Below, in pieces: positions 4,067-14,597 of a stretch of 64,000 nt of DNA. Source of the stretch: Saccharopolyspora sp. NFXS83. GTDB lineage: Bacteria > Actinomycetota > Actinomycetes > Mycobacteriales > Pseudonocardiaceae. Every line of letters starts with the position of its first letter. Position 1 is the stretch's first letter. The stretch covers positions 1 through 64,000 of the forward strand of contig NZ_JAPFGB010000030.1 in NCBI RefSeq assembly GCF_026241095.1, given 5' to 3'. Made by a program: the position numbers and the translations under genes. Under the pieces are notes generated by a model that saw only the letters and a program-made list of their open reading frames with translations, was not told where the DNA came from and did not search any database.

Positions 4067-4111
4067 CCGGGGCACGATCGTGTCCGGCCCGGAGAGCGGT
4101 TCGGGACGTCG

Positions 4112-5578
4112 TCAGTTCGGCCGGACCCGTGGAACTCCGCCCTTGCGGCCGAGGTCGAACGTGATGCGGTAGATGTCCGGCAGGTCAAGCATCCCGCTAG
4201 TGCGCCGTTTCATCACGCCCAGCTCGATCAGCTCTTCGACCAAGCTCTCCGCACGGTGGTTGCGGGGACCGGCCGAAACCTGTTGCTTCGTTTCCTGGCG
4301 CCCCTGCTCGCTGGACTGGGCCCGCTGGTGCTCGTCAAGGAGCTTCGGGAGGTCCACTTCGCCCCAGCGCGCGGCGACGTCGGCCTGCGAGATGGGGACC
4401 TGCTTTCCCGCCAGCGGCTTGATCGTCACAGGAACCCACCTGATGTCCTCGGTCAATTCCCCTACCCGCGTCTCGGACGCGGCCTGCACGCCTTTTTTGA
4501 TCGCGTCCCAGTGCAGGGCGTGCTCATATCCGGCGTGTTGAGCGCCCGAGCTCTCCCCCGCGCGGCGCAACGCTTCCAGGAAGCTGCGTGGGCTGATCTG
4601 GTCGGTGCCATCTGCGAGGTGGTTGGGCAGCCAGGTGTAGGTGTGGCCCTTCCTGTGGTTCTGCCCCATGTACGGCCCTGCGATCGCTATGAAGGTCGCG
4701 TTCTGCCTCTCGCGGTCGCCGGTCAGCGCGTCGGGCGCCACGTAGCGGTGCTGGGATTCTCGCCAGCGGCCGGTGGAGGACCGAAACACCTCGGCGTGGT
4801 CGCTTTCCGCATTGCCCAGCTGGTGGAAGAACAGCCCGTACAGGTTGGACCGGGTCCACGTGAGCTCGGCCGCGTTCGAGATGAGTTTCGAGGAGTCGGC
4901 GAAGTTGAGCGAGAGGTTGTTCAGCATGTCGGGCCGGATGAAGACCTTCGCCCGCAGGTGCCGCGTCATCATCCGGAGTTCCAGTGCGACCCGCAGGATC
5001 GCGGTGGCGAGGCGGTCTGCTTGCGACCGCTCCTGGTGGGTCCGCTCCAACGCGTCGAACATGACCAGCTCGGTGCGGCCCGCACGCTCGGCTTCTTCAT
5101 CGGCGCGGGCGAGCGCTCCCGCTCTGTCCTCCGGGTTGTCCCGCACCCATTCCACCCGTGCCGACCACTTCGGGAGAGCTCGGACCTCCGGCACCTCCAG
5201 TGCTTGCAAGACGACCGCGTACCAGATGTCCCTCGGTTCTGCTCCGCGATCGAGCATCGCCCGGATGGTGTCCGCGTCCGGGTATCGGGCAGGCAGCAGT
5301 GCCGCCCCGTGCCCGGGGTGGGGAACGATCCGGCGCAGCTGGGGGAGGCGGTACTCCTCGGCCGCCAGTTCGCGCAGCTGGTCCTTCTGCAACGCTTGGA
5401 ACCACACCGACTTCCCGACTCCGCGCCCGCCCCTGACGATGGTCACGTCCGGATCCAGCGACAGGCGGTGGCTGGATGGGGTGAACAGCGTGCGCGGATC
5501 GATCGGACTGGTGTCTGCGTCCACTGTGGAGGGAATTGCCGCCAGGAGTTCCCGGTACTGGTGAGGGGTGAGGCTCAT
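4112..5578 (-). CDS. P-loop ATPase, third gene of the HEPN/KGGVGR operon
   Basis: Protein of 488 residues with an unambiguous Walker A loop GGRGVGKS at 50-57 preceded by a beta-strand (VTIVR), and a Walker B-like strand LVMFDAL at 171-177 (Asp175). The middle is alpha-helical and charged. The C-terminal 60 residues (ESLVEELIELGVM, then SGMLDLPDIYRI) look like a small winged-helix domain, ending GRKGGVPRVRPN. I do not recognise a named family with a tested function. Its ATG overlaps the stop of the upstream KGGVGR ATPase gene by 4 bases, so translation is coupled and the two ATPases likely act together. Role as an effector or sensor in conflict is inferred from partners only. Its codon choice is slightly less GC-extreme than the flanking housekeeping genes. 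Confidence 0.75.
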   Translation of the reverse strand: MSLTPHQYRELLAAIPSTVDADTSPIDPRTLFTPSSHRLSLDPDVTIVRGGRGVGKSVWFQALQKDQLRELAAEEYRLPQLRRIVPHPGHGAALLPARYPDADTIRAMLDRGAEPRDIWYAVVLQALEVPEVRALPKWSARVEWVRDNPEDRAGALARADEEAERAGRTELVMFDALERTHQERSQADRLATAILRVALELRMMTRHLRAKVFIRPDMLNNLSLNFADSSKLISNAAELTWTRSNLYGLFFHQLGNAESDHAEVFRSSTGRWRESQHRYVAPDALTGDRERQNATFIAIAGPYMGQNHRKGHTYTWLPNHLADGTDQISPRSFLEALRRAGESSGAQHAGYEHALHWDAIKKGVQAASETRVGELTEDIRWVPVTIKPLAGKQVPISQADVAARWGEVDLPKLLDEHQRAQSSEQGRQETKQQVSAGPRNHRAESLVEELIELGVMKRRTSGMLDLPDIYRITFDLGRKGGVPRVRPN

Positions 5579-6900
5579 GCCTGCTCTTCCACGGCGAGGT
5601 CGCCTGCTTCGCGGAGGAACCGCTCGTAGGCGGCCTTGACGAACGGTTGATCGTGCCAGTCCGGGGCTCCGGCGTGGTCGACCCCGATGAGATCGTTGCT
5701 GAACAAGATCGGGAGCGGGAAATGCGGAGCATCCCGATCATCGGGACCGTAGTTGAACGCACCTTCGTCATCCGGGTACGCGTCGTCGTACAAGGTCTCC
5801 GCGAAGCACTGCTGGGCGTGGTCTTGGAAGCGTTCCAGCCGTTCCGGCGCCGACGCTGACGGAACCATGGCCGCAACCATCCGCAACCGTTTGCGGATGT
5901 CGTCGCGGAGCTCTGCCGGGAGCTGACGCCACTGGTCGAACAGCATCCGGTACCCGGCCCAGGTGTGCGGGTTGTCGTTCGCGAACAGCAGGCTCAGGCT
6001 GCTGAGCCGCGTGATCGCGATCGCAGCGATGTCGTGCACTCCGGCCCGGCTGTCCAGGAGGACCACGTCCGGTTCCCGGCTGCGCTCGGCGACCTGCCGT
6101 TCGGCCGCGCTGAGCGCGGATTCGAGGCGGTCGGCCAAGGTGCGCGGCGCACCGTTGTCGGCGTCGGGGAGCTCGGCGTACACCCGGTTGAGCTTGGCCA
6201 GGTAGTCGCGCTGGTACACGCCCCCGGGTTCCCGGCCGTCGGCGGCCAGCAACCACACTTCGCCGTTGCCGGGCGGCCTGATCACTTCGCTGCGGCTGAC
6301 CAGGTCGAGCCCGGCCTCGTTGCCCACTGCGGATTCCACGAGGTGGTCGACGAGCCCGTGCGCGGAACGGTTGTCCGGTTGTTGCAGAAGTTCGCCGACA
6401 CCGGGTGATTCCAGGTCCAGGTCCGCGACCAGGACGCACAGCCCCCGCTCAGCGAGGCTCTTCGCCAGCATGAAGGTCGCGGTCGAGCGGCCGACACCGC
6501 CTTTGAAGGCGTAAAGGGTGATTCGGCGAAGTGGCGGTGTCAGGCTCGGGCGTGCCCAGTCGGCGCCGACCACGGTTCGTTCGAGCACGGCGAACCGACC
6601 GGAGCCGGTATCGCGGTCCCGGGCGTGCCGAACGATCAGGTCAGGGGAGGTCAGCACTGCCTCCGGAACGAACAGCTCGGACGCGCGCAGCACCGGAGGC
6701 CGGGAGCCGAAAGGCCCAGCCGCGATCCGGATCTCGTCCTCCAGGCCGGCCGGGATCTCCTCGCCGCCGGTGTCGTCGAGCACCAGCGTGAGGCGCCCGG
6801 TGAGGTCTCGGATCAGCACGGTGTCGAGGCCGGACATCGACGTGTTCTCGGCGACCTGGCACGCGTTCGCCCACGCTTCGTCGAAGCGGATCGTCGTCAC
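5575..6900 (-). CDS. KGGVGR-motif variant ParA/MinD-like ATPase
   Basis: Protein of 441 residues, GTG start. Residues 1-125 form an alpha/beta N-terminal part of unknown fold. From about 125 there is a deviant-Walker (SIMIBI) ATPase: FKGGVGRST at 132-140, VADLDLESPG around 158-167 and the switch strand VVLLDSRAGVHD at 279-290. In ordinary ParA/MinD proteins the loop reads KGGxGKT/S; the Lys-to-Arg change is the defining mark of the KGGVGR variant group, which keeps the upstream signature Lys133. Such proteins are found in variable islands with HEPN or other putative effector genes. Start overlaps the HEPN-like gene stop (GTGA) and stop overlaps the next ATPase start (ATGA). Confidence 0.85.
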   Translation of the reverse strand: MTTIRFDEAWANACQVAENTSMSGLDTVLIRDLTGRLTLVLDDTGGEEIPAGLEDEIRIAAGPFGSRPPVLRASELFVPEAVLTSPDLIVRHARDRDTGSGRFAVLERTVVGADWARPSLTPPLRRITLYAFKGGVGRSTATFMLAKSLAERGLCVLVADLDLESPGVGELLQQPDNRSAHGLVDHLVESAVGNEAGLDLVSRSEVIRPPGNGEVWLLAADGREPGGVYQRDYLAKLNRVYAELPDADNGAPRTLADRLESALSAAERQVAERSREPDVVLLDSRAGVHDIAAIAITRLSSLSLLFANDNPHTWAGYRMLFDQWRQLPAELRDDIRKRLRMVAAMVPSASAPERLERFQDHAQQCFAETLYDDAYPDDEGAFNYGPDDRDAPHFPLPILFSNDLIGVDHAGAPDWHDQPFVKAAYERFLREAGDLAVEEQA

Positions 6901-7349
6901 GGGAGTGCTCCGTAGATCTGCGCCTGTTGGTGGAACGAGAGTATCTTCCGCGCCTCATCGAGGTGGGTATCAGCGCGGCGGGCGTCGATGTGCGAGCCGT
7001 CCGAATAGCGCTCAGCGACATCCCAGCGCAGGAAGGGATTGGTCCCGGTGATCACTTGGTGGAAGGTGCTGCCGGTCCGCCCGGAGGAGATCAATCCCAA
7101 TTCCCGCCACAAACCCGGTAAGTGGCCGTAACGGGAGTCCGAGTGCTGTGGATGCGTTGGTCTTCCCCTGCGGACGACACCACCGAGGTGCCCGACGAGG
7201 ATCGCCTTCAACGCACATTCGGCCGCGACGCCGGCGAGGTGATCGGCGTTCGCGAACCGTTGTTCCTCCCGCAACAGCTGGGCATCCCGGTAATGACGAT
7301 CTGCCGCGTCCGCGAAGCGGGTGGTGTCCGGTGGCTCGAGCACGATCAC
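6897..7349 (-). CDS. HEPN-like protein, first gene of the conflict operon
   Basis: A 150-residue helical protein. The stretch HYRDAQLLREEQRFANADHL followed by AGVAAECALKAIL fits the first two helices of HEPN domains (A..LA..AAE.ALKA), and the later W..AERY helix pair fits helix four. An Arg114-x5-His120 spacing satisfies the Rx4-6H rule of HEPN RNases, but many HEPN proteins carry only part of it, so nuclease activity is not claimed. Starts are GTG at 7349 or 7343. No Shine-Dalgarno is visible, and TATGCT ends six bases before the second GTG, which would suit a leaderless mRNA. It overlaps the KGGVGR gene by 3 bases. Confidence 0.6.
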   Translation of the reverse strand: MIVLEPPDTTRFADAADRHYRDAQLLREEQRFANADHLAGVAAECALKAILVGHLGGVVRRGRPTHPQHSDSRYGHLPGLWRELGLISSGRTGSTFHQVITGTNPFLRWDVAERYSDGSHIDARRADTHLDEARKILSFHQQAQIYGALP

Positions 7350-7355
7350 AGCATA
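7350..7355 (-). promoter_or_regulatory. Candidate -10 box of the HEPN/KGGVGR operon
   Basis: On the minus strand TATGCT occupies these six positions and is followed by six bases and then GTG at 7343. That spacing matches leaderless actinobacterial promoters, where transcription begins at the start codon. No clear -35 hexamer is seen. Confidence 0.35.
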
Positions 7356-7395
7356 CGCATGGTCGTCACGCAGAGTGGTTTCACTTGGAGGCGAA

Positions 7396-11869: not shown

Positions 11870-13150
11870 ATGGCGCACTCGGTGATCGACGTGATCCGCG
11901 CGAAGCGGGACGGCGACCGGCTCGACGACGAGCAGATCGACTGGGTGGTCGACGCCTACACCCGCGGCGCGGTGGCCGAGGAGCAGATGGCCGCCCTGGC
12001 GATGGCGATCCTGCTGCGCGGCATGGATCGCGCCGAGACGGCCCGCTGGACCGCGGCGATGATCGGTTCCGGCGAACGGCTCGACCTCAGCGGCGTCCCG
12101 CGTTCCACGGTGGACAAGCATTCCACCGGCGGCGTCGGGGACAAGATCACCTTGCCGCTGACCCCGCTGGTCGCGGCCTGCGGCGCGGCGGTGCCGCAGC
12201 TGTCCGGCCGCGGGCTCGGGCACACCGGCGGCACGCTGGACAAGCTGGAGTCCATCCCCGGCTGGCGCGCCCGGCTCTCGGCGGCCGAGATCCGCGCTCA
12301 GCTCGCCGAGGTCGGCGCCGTGGTGTGCGCGGCCACCGAAGGCATCGCGCCCGCGGACCGCAAGCTCTACGCGCTGCGCGACGTCACCGGCACCGTCGAG
12401 TCCATCCCCCTGATCGCCAGCTCCATCATGAGCAAGAAGATCGCGGAGGGCGCCGAATCCCTGGTGCTCGACGTGAAGTGCGGGTCCGGCGCGTTCATGA
12501 AGGACTTGGAGCAGGCGCGGGCGCTGGCCGACGAGCTCGTCTCGATCGGCGCCGCGCACGGCGTCCGCACGAGCGCGCTGCTCACCGACATGTCGGTGCC
12601 GCTGGGAGCCGCCGTGGGCAACGCGCTGGAGGTCGCGGAGTCCCTCGAGGTGCTGCAGGGCGGCGGCCCGGCGGACGTCGTGGAGCTGACGCTGGCGCTG
12701 GCTCGGGAGATGCTCGCGCACGCGGGCCTGTCCGACGTGGATCCGGCGGAGGTGCTGGCCTCGGGCAAGGCGTACGACTCCTGGCGCTCGATGATCGGCG
12801 CCCAGGGCGGCGACCCGGACGCGGAACTGCCCACGGCCGCGCACGTGGAGACGTTCGCGGCCCCGGCGACCGGCGTAGTGTCCACTTTGGACGCTTATGC
12901 CGTGGGGCTGGCCGCCTGGCGGCTGGGGGCGGGCCGGGCGCGCAAGGAGGACGCCGTGCAGCACGCCGCAGGCATCCGCTGCCTGGCGAAACCGGGGGAG
13001 CCGGTCATCGAGGGCGCCCCGCTGCTCGAACTCCACACCGACACCCCCGACAAGCTCCCCGCCGCCCGCGAGGCGCTCGCCGAGGCCGTCGCCATCACCG
13101 CCGAAGCCCCCGCCGCCACCCCGCTGATCCTCGACACGATCCGCCCCTGA
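11870..13150 (+). CDS. deoA: Thymidine phosphorylase
   Basis: Phosphorolyses thymidine and deoxyuridine to base and deoxyribose-1-phosphate (426 residues, normal length). The phosphate site KHSTGGVGDK is at 83-92 and the family signature SGRGLGHTGGTLDKLE at 112-127. It lies 103 bp after cdd in the same direction and is probably cotranscribed. The spacer region after the gene contains unusual palindromes. Confidence 0.96.
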   Translation: MAHSVIDVIRAKRDGDRLDDEQIDWVVDAYTRGAVAEEQMAALAMAILLRGMDRAETARWTAAMIGSGERLDLSGVPRSTVDKHSTGGVGDKITLPLTPLVAACGAAVPQLSGRGLGHTGGTLDKLESIPGWRARLSAAEIRAQLAEVGAVVCAATEGIAPADRKLYALRDVTGTVESIPLIASSIMSKKIAEGAESLVLDVKCGSGAFMKDLEQARALADELVSIGAAHGVRTSALLTDMSVPLGAAVGNALEVAESLEVLQGGGPADVVELTLALAREMLAHAGLSDVDPAEVLASGKAYDSWRSMIGAQGGDPDAELPTAAHVETFAAPATGVVSTLDAYAVGLAAWRLGAGRARKEDAVQHAAGIRCLAKPGEPVIEGAPLLELHTDTPDKLPAAREALAEAVAITAEAPAATPLILDTIRP

Positions 13151-13168
13151 CGCCCCGCGGCGCGGGCT

Positions 13169-13311
13169 GGGTGAACGGACCGTTCGTCCAACGAGACCGG
13201 GCGAACGGTCCCGTCACCCGCAACGGCACCACGCGCCCCGCCGCCTCTGACGACGTCGGGGTGGGTGAACGGACCGTTCGTCCAATCCGGTTGGACGAAC
13301 GGTCCGTTCAC
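13169..13311. repeat. Palindromic GTGAACGGACCGTTCG repeat cluster
   Basis: GTGAACGGACCGTTCGTCC appears twice in direct orientation (from about 13170 and 13264). The second copy is followed after five bases by its exact inverted complement ending near 13311, giving a 21-bp perfect stem. A degenerate half (GCGAACGGTCCCGTCAC) lies between. GTGAACGG-type palindromes are, as I recall, frequent after genes in Pseudonocardiales genomes. Likely roles are termination or mRNA 3'-end protection for deoA; no T-run follows. Confidence 0.7.
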
Positions 13312-13340
13312 TCCGAAAAAATCCGGCGCCGGACATGCGA

Positions 13341-13376
13341 CAGGGCCGCGGTTCCCGGGTGGGAACCGCGGCCCTG
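13341..13376. terminator. Bidirectional hairpin between deoA and the coiled-coil gene
   Basis: Perfect 16-bp stem (13341-13356 with 13361-13376) and a GGGT loop, located between two convergent genes and 15 bp from the stop of the minus-strand one. Confidence 0.75.
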
Positions 13377-13391
13377 GTCGGTGCTGCGGGG

Positions 13392-14597
13392 TCAGGCGCT
13401 CTCGGCGGCGTAACCCTCGTCGGAGGAGTCGTCCGAACCCAGCGCCTTCGCGTCGCCGTCGCGCTTGGCGCTCTTCGAGCGACCGCGACCGCGCTGCTGG
13501 CGGGGCAGCGTGGTGGGCGGCGGCGGGCTGGACGGGCCGCTGCCGCCGAGGATCAGCTCGGCGAACGTGGCCATGGCCTCGTCGAGCTGACCGGCGTGGC
13601 GCCGCTCGGTCTCCTCGTTGGCCTGGCGGACCATCGTGTCCACCGCGTCGGAGTCCGGCCGCGACGCGAGCGTGCCGCTGATCTGCGACAGGTTCTGCGC
13701 CAGCGTGCCGCCGAGCTCGCCGAGCCCGGACTTGACGCCCTCTTCGACGGTGTCGAGCCGGGTGCTGACGCCCTGCTCGACCGCCTCGATGCGGGTGTGC
13801 ACGTTGTCCTCGACGTTGTCCAACCGGCCGGAGACGCGGTCGAGCCGCTCGGTGAGCTGCTCCAGGCGCTCGGCCAGCTTGTCGAGCTTCTCGGTCGGGT
13901 CGACCGCGGGGCGCTCGGCGAGCGCGTCGAGGCCGGTCTGCAGCTGGTCGCGGCTGCCGGTGACGGCTTCGGTGAGCGCGCCCTGCACGCCGCTGCCGGT
14001 CTCGGTGACCGCGCGCTGCAGGGACTCGCGGGTGCCGTCGAGGTGCTCGTGGACGCCCTCGTCGATCTCGGCGAACCGGCCGCGCAGGCTGGTCTCCAGG
14101 CCGTCGATGCGCTCGCGGACCTGACCGGTCACCGAACCCGGGATGGCTTCCAGGCGGGTGTCCTGCTTGTCGAGGTGGCCGCCGAGCTCGTCGAGGCGCT
14201 TGTGGATGTGCGCGAGCTTGTCCTCCAACCCGTCCATCCGGCCGGCGACGCCGTCGAAGCGTCCGGAGACGCCGTCGAGGCGGCCGTCGAGCTGCGCGAA
14301 CGGCTTGGCGAGCTTGTCGAACAGGCCGTCCACGGCCAGTTTGACGTCGCCGATGACCCCGTCCTGGGCGTCGATCTTGGAGAGGGCTTCGTCGACCCGC
14401 TCGGTCAGCACGCCGAGTTCGGTGCGGTCGGGGAGTTCGGACAGCCGCTTGCGGACGGAACCCAGCGATTCCAGCGGGGACATCCGGGCGTGGATCTCGT
14501 CGAGTGCGTCGAAAATCTGCTGCTGCTCGCTCTCGCGGATTTCGGCCGCACGCGTGAGCATGTTCCGCATGCGGTCGAAGGACATGTTCTCGTTCAC
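13392..14597 (-). CDS. Long coiled-coil protein with apolipoprotein-like helical repeats
   Basis: About 401 residues from the GTG start at 14597 (GAAGGA site upstream); an ATG four codons later is nearly as good. Nearly the whole of residues 1-330 is amphipathic helix with recurring RLDGV, RMDGLEDKL, HLDKQ and RLDTVEEGV units, in the style of apolipoprotein A/E-like or tether coiled coils. A Pro-rich break (SSPPPPTTLP), a basic cluster (RQQRGRGRSKSAKR) and an acidic tail follow. No enzyme motif, signal or membrane segment. I do not recognise its family; a structural or cell-envelope/nucleoid scaffolding role is only a guess. Confidence 0.7.
   Translation of the reverse strand: MNENMSFDRMRNMLTRAAEIRESEQQQIFDALDEIHARMSPLESLGSVRKRLSELPDRTELGVLTERVDEALSKIDAQDGVIGDVKLAVDGLFDKLAKPFAQLDGRLDGVSGRFDGVAGRMDGLEDKLAHIHKRLDELGGHLDKQDTRLEAIPGSVTGQVRERIDGLETSLRGRFAEIDEGVHEHLDGTRESLQRAVTETGSGVQGALTEAVTGSRDQLQTGLDALAERPAVDPTEKLDKLAERLEQLTERLDRVSGRLDNVEDNVHTRIEAVEQGVSTRLDTVEEGVKSGLGELGGTLAQNLSQISGTLASRPDSDAVDTMVRQANEETERRHAGQLDEAMATFAELILGGSGPSSPPPPTTLPRQQRGRGRSKSAKRDGDAKALGSDDSSDEGYAAESA

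Follow-up and report, generated by a model that had tools for sequence, protein, structure and literature searches.

PDC-M28, a catalogued phage-defence candidate, is a mobile module of a predicted HEPN-fold protein and two P-loop ATPases inserted beside the sdh operon of a Saccharopolyspora genome

In the 64,000-nucleotide stretch of Saccharopolyspora sp. NFXS83 considered here (contig NZ_JAPFGB010000030.1; hereafter the window), three closely packed genes next to the sdh operon encode a protein with a predicted HEPN fold (gene A), a ParA/MinD-like ATPase (gene B) and a further P-loop ATPase (gene C). This trio is PDC-M28, an uncharacterised phage-defence candidate of the PADLOC catalogue, and forms a genuine mobile module whose three genes are under purifying selection. 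Its role is very probably defensive, and we lean towards reading the whole as a mobile antiphage module in which C would be the sensor, B the gate and A an RNase that aborts infection. The three genes are as follows.

7349..6897, minus strand: gene A, 150 amino acids (aa), GTG start; HEPN-fold protein (predicted), PDC-M28A
6900..5575, minus strand: gene B, 441 aa, GTG start; ParA/MinD-like ATPase with a KGGVGR P-loop, PDC-M28B
5578..4112, minus strand: gene C, 488 aa, ATG start; P-loop ATPase, PDC-M28C, distant to the Sll1717 family

The A/B and B/C joints are 4-base overlaps, in agreement with a first-pass annotation of the DNA that had described three minus-strand genes joined by short overlaps. 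The PADLOC-DB profiles PDC-M28A, PDC-M28B and PDC-M28C match A, B and C in this order and over nearly their full length (PDLC04558, E 8e-40; PDLC04559, E 6.8e-120; PDLC04561, E 4.1e-161), and the PDC-M28A model matches all 19 A sequences that were scanned. Because all three proteins match in order, the trio is catalogued and not, as the annotation had supposed, undescribed; gene order and all three proteins are like those of PDC-M28, no difference was found, and PADLOC-DB holds the candidate without a description. A literature search outside bioRxiv found no publication naming PDC-M28, and none on KGGVGR, on Sll1717 or on an antiphage combination of HEPN protein and ParA-like ATPase. The PDC names reportedly come from a 2024 preprint by Payne et al., a work cited in connection with defence systems nested inside others. 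The term phage defence candidate, as well as the embedding of one system in another, also appears in passages of two further papers (PMC11514479, PMC12255303), and the DefensePredictor study lists four validated systems with HEPN domains, the trio not being among the passages considered (PMC13092281).

Scanning genome contigs with C yielded 27 loci, 20 of which carry A, B and C in the window's order; at L019 B and C accompany a broken A, and the remaining six (L018, L026, L027, L028, L030 and L031) show C alone. Twenty plasmid records contain C; ten of these, chosen for spread, were opened, and nine held the trio and one (L041) C alone. C found no match among GenBank phages, and its scan of IMG/VR returned four viral contigs, all with the whole trio and two of them lambdoid. 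The hosts comprise Streptomyces and other Actinomycetota, alpha-, beta- and gammaproteobacteria and the cyanobacterium Calothrix. Closer to the window, C is present in two of 60 relatives searched (the window's genome and G034), and five of 396 genomes of the phylum, the window's included, match it: two at full length (G000, G082) and three in weak partial matches (G122, G219 and G425; L004-L006) that stand outside all trio-locus counts.

Across the 31 loci with all three genes (a set without L011, L019 and the viral loci), distances in the trees of A, B and C show correlations of 0.95-0.98, and none of 2000 permutations gave values as high. Co-inheritance of the trio is thereby borne out, its few exceptions being the seven loci with C alone and the broken A of L019. 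In 15 gene comparisons from five pairs of relatives, dN/dS is 0.00-0.25 and lowest for C in four of the five pairs. The A/B and B/C overlaps at the other loci, with start codons chosen by us, are mostly 1 or 4 bases, seven joints being otherwise. Signs of movement accompany this cohesion. In the viral contig L109, the trio neighbours genes for the antiterminator Q, NinB, the replication proteins O and P and CII; L112 shares parts of this phage region at 88% DNA identity, and a 4.7-kb stretch holding the trio and one further gene after C (L109:3925-8624, L112:3923-8624) is 98.7% identical against 88% in the aligned flanks and therefore looks like a recently moved or swapped cassette. Integrase genes adjoin A in three plasmid loci (L036, L037, L042). 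The trio is sporadic in its occurrence and is carried on plasmids and viral contigs as well.

Several observations concern the incomplete copies. In L019, A is broken at positions 5900-6610, B and C are still open, and a distant sdhAB-like pair precedes the trio by about 2 kb. The solo C proteins of Streptomyces (L026, L027, L028, L030, L031 and L041) form one clade nested among the C proteins of trios, and the three of them that were aligned (L026, L028, L030) keep the P-loop Lys. In L018 (497-5785), a metagenome-assembled contig of 6.3 kb, C stands alone after two GGDEF diguanylate-cyclase proteins.

In the window itself, the trio fills an insert that can be delimited against empty sites.

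About 4071..7395, no strand: segment missing in five congeners, its long genes being A, B and C; from alignment to the empty sites L054-L058
7396..7428, no strand: hairpin between sdhB and A, at the right insert edge and the end of the sdh operon; from inverted repeat I14 and intergenic folding

In all five congeners the two flanks adjoin, about 16-85 bases taking the place of window positions ~4071-7395, and C is missing genome-wide from each of them. The trio thus parts regions that are adjacent in relatives, just as had been proposed, and is a sporadic element rather than a core locus of all relatives. About 40 bases separate the end of C from one edge of the insert, and about 50 the start of A from the other, where the hairpin begins; as the three long genes fill the insert, it has no room for an integrase or transposase. 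The hairpin is a terminator-like stem without a T run, and a consensus scan for promoters and terminators returned none. No target-site duplication is visible by eye at the insert junctions, the repeats found are taken as chance, and the 64-kb window holds no tRNA genes.

A second copy at this position is found in Saccharothrix coeruleofusca (L025), where sdhB and the SCO4848/carboxypeptidase pair again flank the trio (the name SCO4848 is taken over from the first-pass annotation); SdhA of the window and of Saccharothrix are 84% identical, which points to a host within the Pseudonocardiaceae. In G034 (L059:6929-10133), the trio lies elsewhere, between genes that by eye resemble a sugar kinase and a hydrolase, and inspection of the ORF list around it by eye recognised no mobility genes. 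The C proteins of the window, L025 and G034 group together in a protein tree given without support values. Outside the genus, neither A nor B nor C follows sdhB in any of 40 Pseudonocardiaceae genomes, whose sdhB-downstream stretches were hand-picked from 90 family genomes at one to three per genus and include that of G034, the stretch in L074 covering only 5.9 kb. The notion that the region downstream of sdhB is a defence hotspot was rejected for want of evidence, all 40 being without the three genes at that place. Among 13 of these genomes, picked for wider gaps after sdhB, rough gene calling by eye, with no family search, recognised no defence genes there except a pair resembling a toxin-antitoxin (TA) system in L085 (931-1570), by eye a ribbon-helix-helix protein with a PIN-type toxin. 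Further along the window, the peptide NGPF(V/T) recurs in overlapping ORFs of the two strands at 12895-13681, which suggests short repeated, partly palindromic DNA near the end of a phosphorylase-like gene (11870-13150).

Defence genes, above all those of type-2 BREX (BREX-2), recur around the trio. BREX-2 genes (PglW, PglX, PglY-like and PglZ, where PglY is our label for proteins whose annotation reads phage resistance protein or DUF6079) lie within the stretch covered at 12 of the 33 non-viral trio loci, a set that includes the window and L019 with its broken A. These comprise eight of the 21 genome-contig loci with B and C (L010, L011, L012, L014, L016, L023, L024 and L033), three of the nine plasmid trio loci (L034, L035, L040) and the G082 locus (L060); L013, with only a 57-residue PglW-like piece, is outside this count. 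The trio takes up varied positions within these clusters: it lies between W and X in the order ABC (two such loci have small genes separating C from X), on the opposite strand between Y and X, in reversed order (CBA) after W and before X, or, in two proteobacteria, in the order X-ABC-Y. At the loci with C alone, BREX-2 genes are found in none of seven, one of which (L018) is a short contig. Under an expectation of 0.5%, a rough figure of our own that assumes a 25-kb BREX locus in an 8.5-Mb genome, eight of 21 corresponds to a binomial tail of 7e-14; many of the loci come from related Streptomyces, and the true enrichment is weaker because of this relatedness.

No BREX-2 genes were found at the trio loci of the window and G034. 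Since the window's genome has no PglW over the cut-off, the sub-threshold matches falling mostly over the kinase-domain part, the window's trio stands without BREX-2. Other defence genes appear singly: an HmaC-type gene lies directly beside the Calothrix trio, and a PADLOC scan of 20 chosen neighbour proteins matched four, namely TmtA (L009), STAND_TPR (L013), HmaC (L039) and, weakly, RmrA (L010), the last of which has a transcriptional regulator as its best NCBIfam match, below cut-off. Two of the 16 unmatched neighbours are SdhA and SdhB of L025. The defensive setting put forward by the first-pass annotation is hence supported by BREX-2 at 12 of the 33 non-viral loci and finds no such support at the other 21. 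Passages of a BREX survey describe HEPN genes in the vicinity of BREX as backup effectors that typically stand alone and in some cases are fused to nucleotidyltransferases (PMC12839542); the trio likewise places a HEPN gene inside BREX clusters, and those passages make no mention of a three-gene unit of this kind.

What might A do? Its AlphaFold2 model (pLDDT 79.8, with residues 66-74 poorly modelled) has a predicted four-helix HEPN fold, and the best matches of the model among solved structures are HEPN domains, so that the HEPN-like protein proposed from the sequence holds up at the level of predicted fold. Pfam gives weak HEPN signals only, all below cut-off (PF05168: 15.4 bits against a cut-off of 22), and a profile of A matches a profile of 16 PF05168 proteins with Prob 95 and E 3e-8. 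Comparison of the profiles of A and C, and of the sequence of C, with solved structures gave nothing significant. AbiV was rejected as a family for A: the Pfam and NCBIfam scores are below cut-off (16.7 versus 27.1 and 12.9 versus 27), one of 19 A sequences matches at E 0.01, and four AbiV proteins give a weak profile match (local Prob 14). The A alignment (A1) consists of the window and 18 of the 21 genome-contig A genes, without L011 (uncertain start), L014 (near-duplicate) and L019 (broken).

The spacing R-x5-H, highlighted by the first-pass annotation, is literally present in the window (R114-x5-H120, RYSDGSH), but its two residues differ in conservation: R114 is invariant in 35 of 35 A sequences, whereas His occupies position 120 in four. 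R-x5-H was therefore rejected as the active site, and the classical Rx4-6H RNase motif is not conserved in the A family. Invariant throughout the 35 are E44, C45, K48, H76, R114 and Y115; this count includes the near-duplicates L012/L014 and L109/L112 and omits L011 and L019, while an earlier count of 30 sequences included L011. In passages of Anantharaman et al. (2013; PMC3710099), AF0298-type HEPN-T and AbiV proteins are described as keeping the basic residue without the His of Rx4-6H, a second conserved His from an insert between helices 2 and 3 is suggested to form an alternative site, and the conserved acidic residue of HEPN domains is placed in helix 2. Relative to the predicted helices 32-54, 78-87/93-103 and 111-115, E44, H76 and R114 appear to lie where such a site would have them, with the acid in helix 2, the His between helices 2 and 3 and the Arg near the end of helix 3. 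Like the AF0298-type HEPN-T and AbiV proteins, A thus combines a predicted HEPN fold with a retained motif Arg, a lost classical His and an invariant second His before helix 3; unlike them, it stays below the Pfam cut-offs and is partnered by a KGGVGR ATPase and a P-loop ATPase. Because three invariant residues match this alternative site in position, it is plausible that A is an RNase acting through a motif other than R-x5-H. The PDB entry 9bj6 is titled as the AbiV RNase of a two-component antiphage system, and our literature search found no paper describing it.

B contains KGGVGRST at residues 133-140, matches a ParA/MinD domain in Pfam and scores 174.8 bits against the NCBIfam model of KGGVGR-motif variant AAA ATPases (AAA_KGGVGR, NF047398; cut-off 90). 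The Arg in place of the P-loop Lys, correctly spotted in the first-pass annotation, is present in all 33 sequences (GG[VA]GR), the leading KGG in 31 of them (L012 and L014 have RGG) and a DSRAG-like motif in 32; the B alignment (A3) joins the window with 20 of the 21 B proteins, L014 being left out. An exchange of Lys for Arg in the P-loop usually slows or stops hydrolysis, and for this reason the fixed Arg suggests that B may be a switch that holds its nucleotide. Predicted-inactive MinD/ParA-like domains occur in other conflict systems, according to passages of PMC7159879.

For C, the 488-residue P-loop ATPase noted at the outset, the closest NCBIfam model is ATPase_Sll1717 (NF047389), which the window's protein matches with 54.8 bits, under the cut-off of 75, and which all 24 C sequences scanned match at E 0.001 or better. 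The Walker A residue Lys56 is invariant in the same number (24 of 24), and AAA_22, AAA_16 and NACHT models match weakly, each in one or two of the 24 members. The C alignment (A2) consists of the window and 23 of 27 C proteins, without L014, L027, L029 and L031. Judging from its size, its conservation and the habit of such operons, C is likely the sensor.

How these parts could work together is our best guess at an RNase-based abortive mechanism, in which we infer the sensing, the gating, the RNA cleavage and the cell arrest. C would sense a cue of infection. B, a ParA/MinD-type protein with a fixed P-loop Arg, would hold nucleotide as a slow or non-cycling switch and keep A switched off until a signal comes from C. 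The AF0298-like HEPN protein A would then be released as a metal-independent RNase that may cleave RNA via E44, H76 and R114 instead of the classical Rx4-6H, stopping translation and aborting the infection. We also entertain, as a tentative and rather doubtful extension, that the trio is an immune switch of new layout, in which two unrelated P-loop NTPases, one of them bearing the fixed P-loop Arg, gate an alternative-site HEPN-T RNase, and which serves as a BREX-2 guard in many hosts while also having been captured by temperate phages to exclude competitors.

Other explanations deserve weight. The trio might be an addiction or TA module that keeps plasmids and phages rather than fighting them, its HEPN toxin being restrained by the ParA-like ATPase in the manner proposed for the MAE_18760 HEPN-ParA/Soj dyad. 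Passages of PMC3710099 do propose a HEPN gene beside a ParA/Soj-like ATPase as a TA pair, the adjoining of A and B resembles this dyad, and trios on plasmids and viral contigs would suit it. However, the table of that paper shows the MAE_18760 HEPNs to keep Rx4-6H, which A does not, and whereas its passages mention no third ATPase, the trio has C, the gene with the lowest dN/dS in most pairs; since the recurrent BREX-2 placing is also better explained by defence, we consider a TA module unlikely, even though TA and defence roles are not exclusive. That same BREX-2 placing could instead mean that the trio belongs to Pgl/BREX-2 or guards it as a backup, springing into action once BREX is blocked by phage proteins, in the way PARIS responds to Ocr. 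BREX-2 genes at 12 of 33 loci, in at least four arrangements and two phyla, their frequency among genome contigs (uncorrected for relatedness) and the reported backup HEPN effectors at BREX loci (PMC12839542) speak for such an accessory role, which is nonetheless quite unlikely given the 21 of 33 loci with no BREX-2 gene in the stretch covered, a window genome without PglW over the cut-off, and trios on phage-like contigs and plasmids with no BREX genes nearby.

A non-catalytic HEPN protein, with A binding nucleotide or RNA as an adaptor between the two ATPases and B or C killing or blocking, strikes us as improbable, as the invariant residues E44, K48, H76 and R114 include those expected of an alternative site. 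An ordinary housekeeping or metabolic role tied to the sdh operon would agree with the position directly after sdhB in the window and Saccharothrix, yet this last explanation is largely refuted by the distribution, with C missing and the site empty in all five congeners, no A, B or C after sdhB in the 40 family genomes (one of them with its short stretch) and the G034 trio elsewhere, and we regard it as extremely improbable. A defensive module with A as a putative RNase is hence the reading we retain.

New here are the candidate alternative active site of A, the empty sites, the breadth and phage carriage of the trio and the counted BREX-2 placing. If our reading is right, a catalogued but mute defence candidate would gain a testable mechanism, and A would exemplify the alternative HEPN active site proposed long ago. 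It would also raise the question of why a ParA-type ATPase with a P-loop Arg has been kept in all 33 copies, while the placings next to BREX-2 and in prophages prompt the further questions of whether the trio backs up Pgl and whether it excludes other phages.

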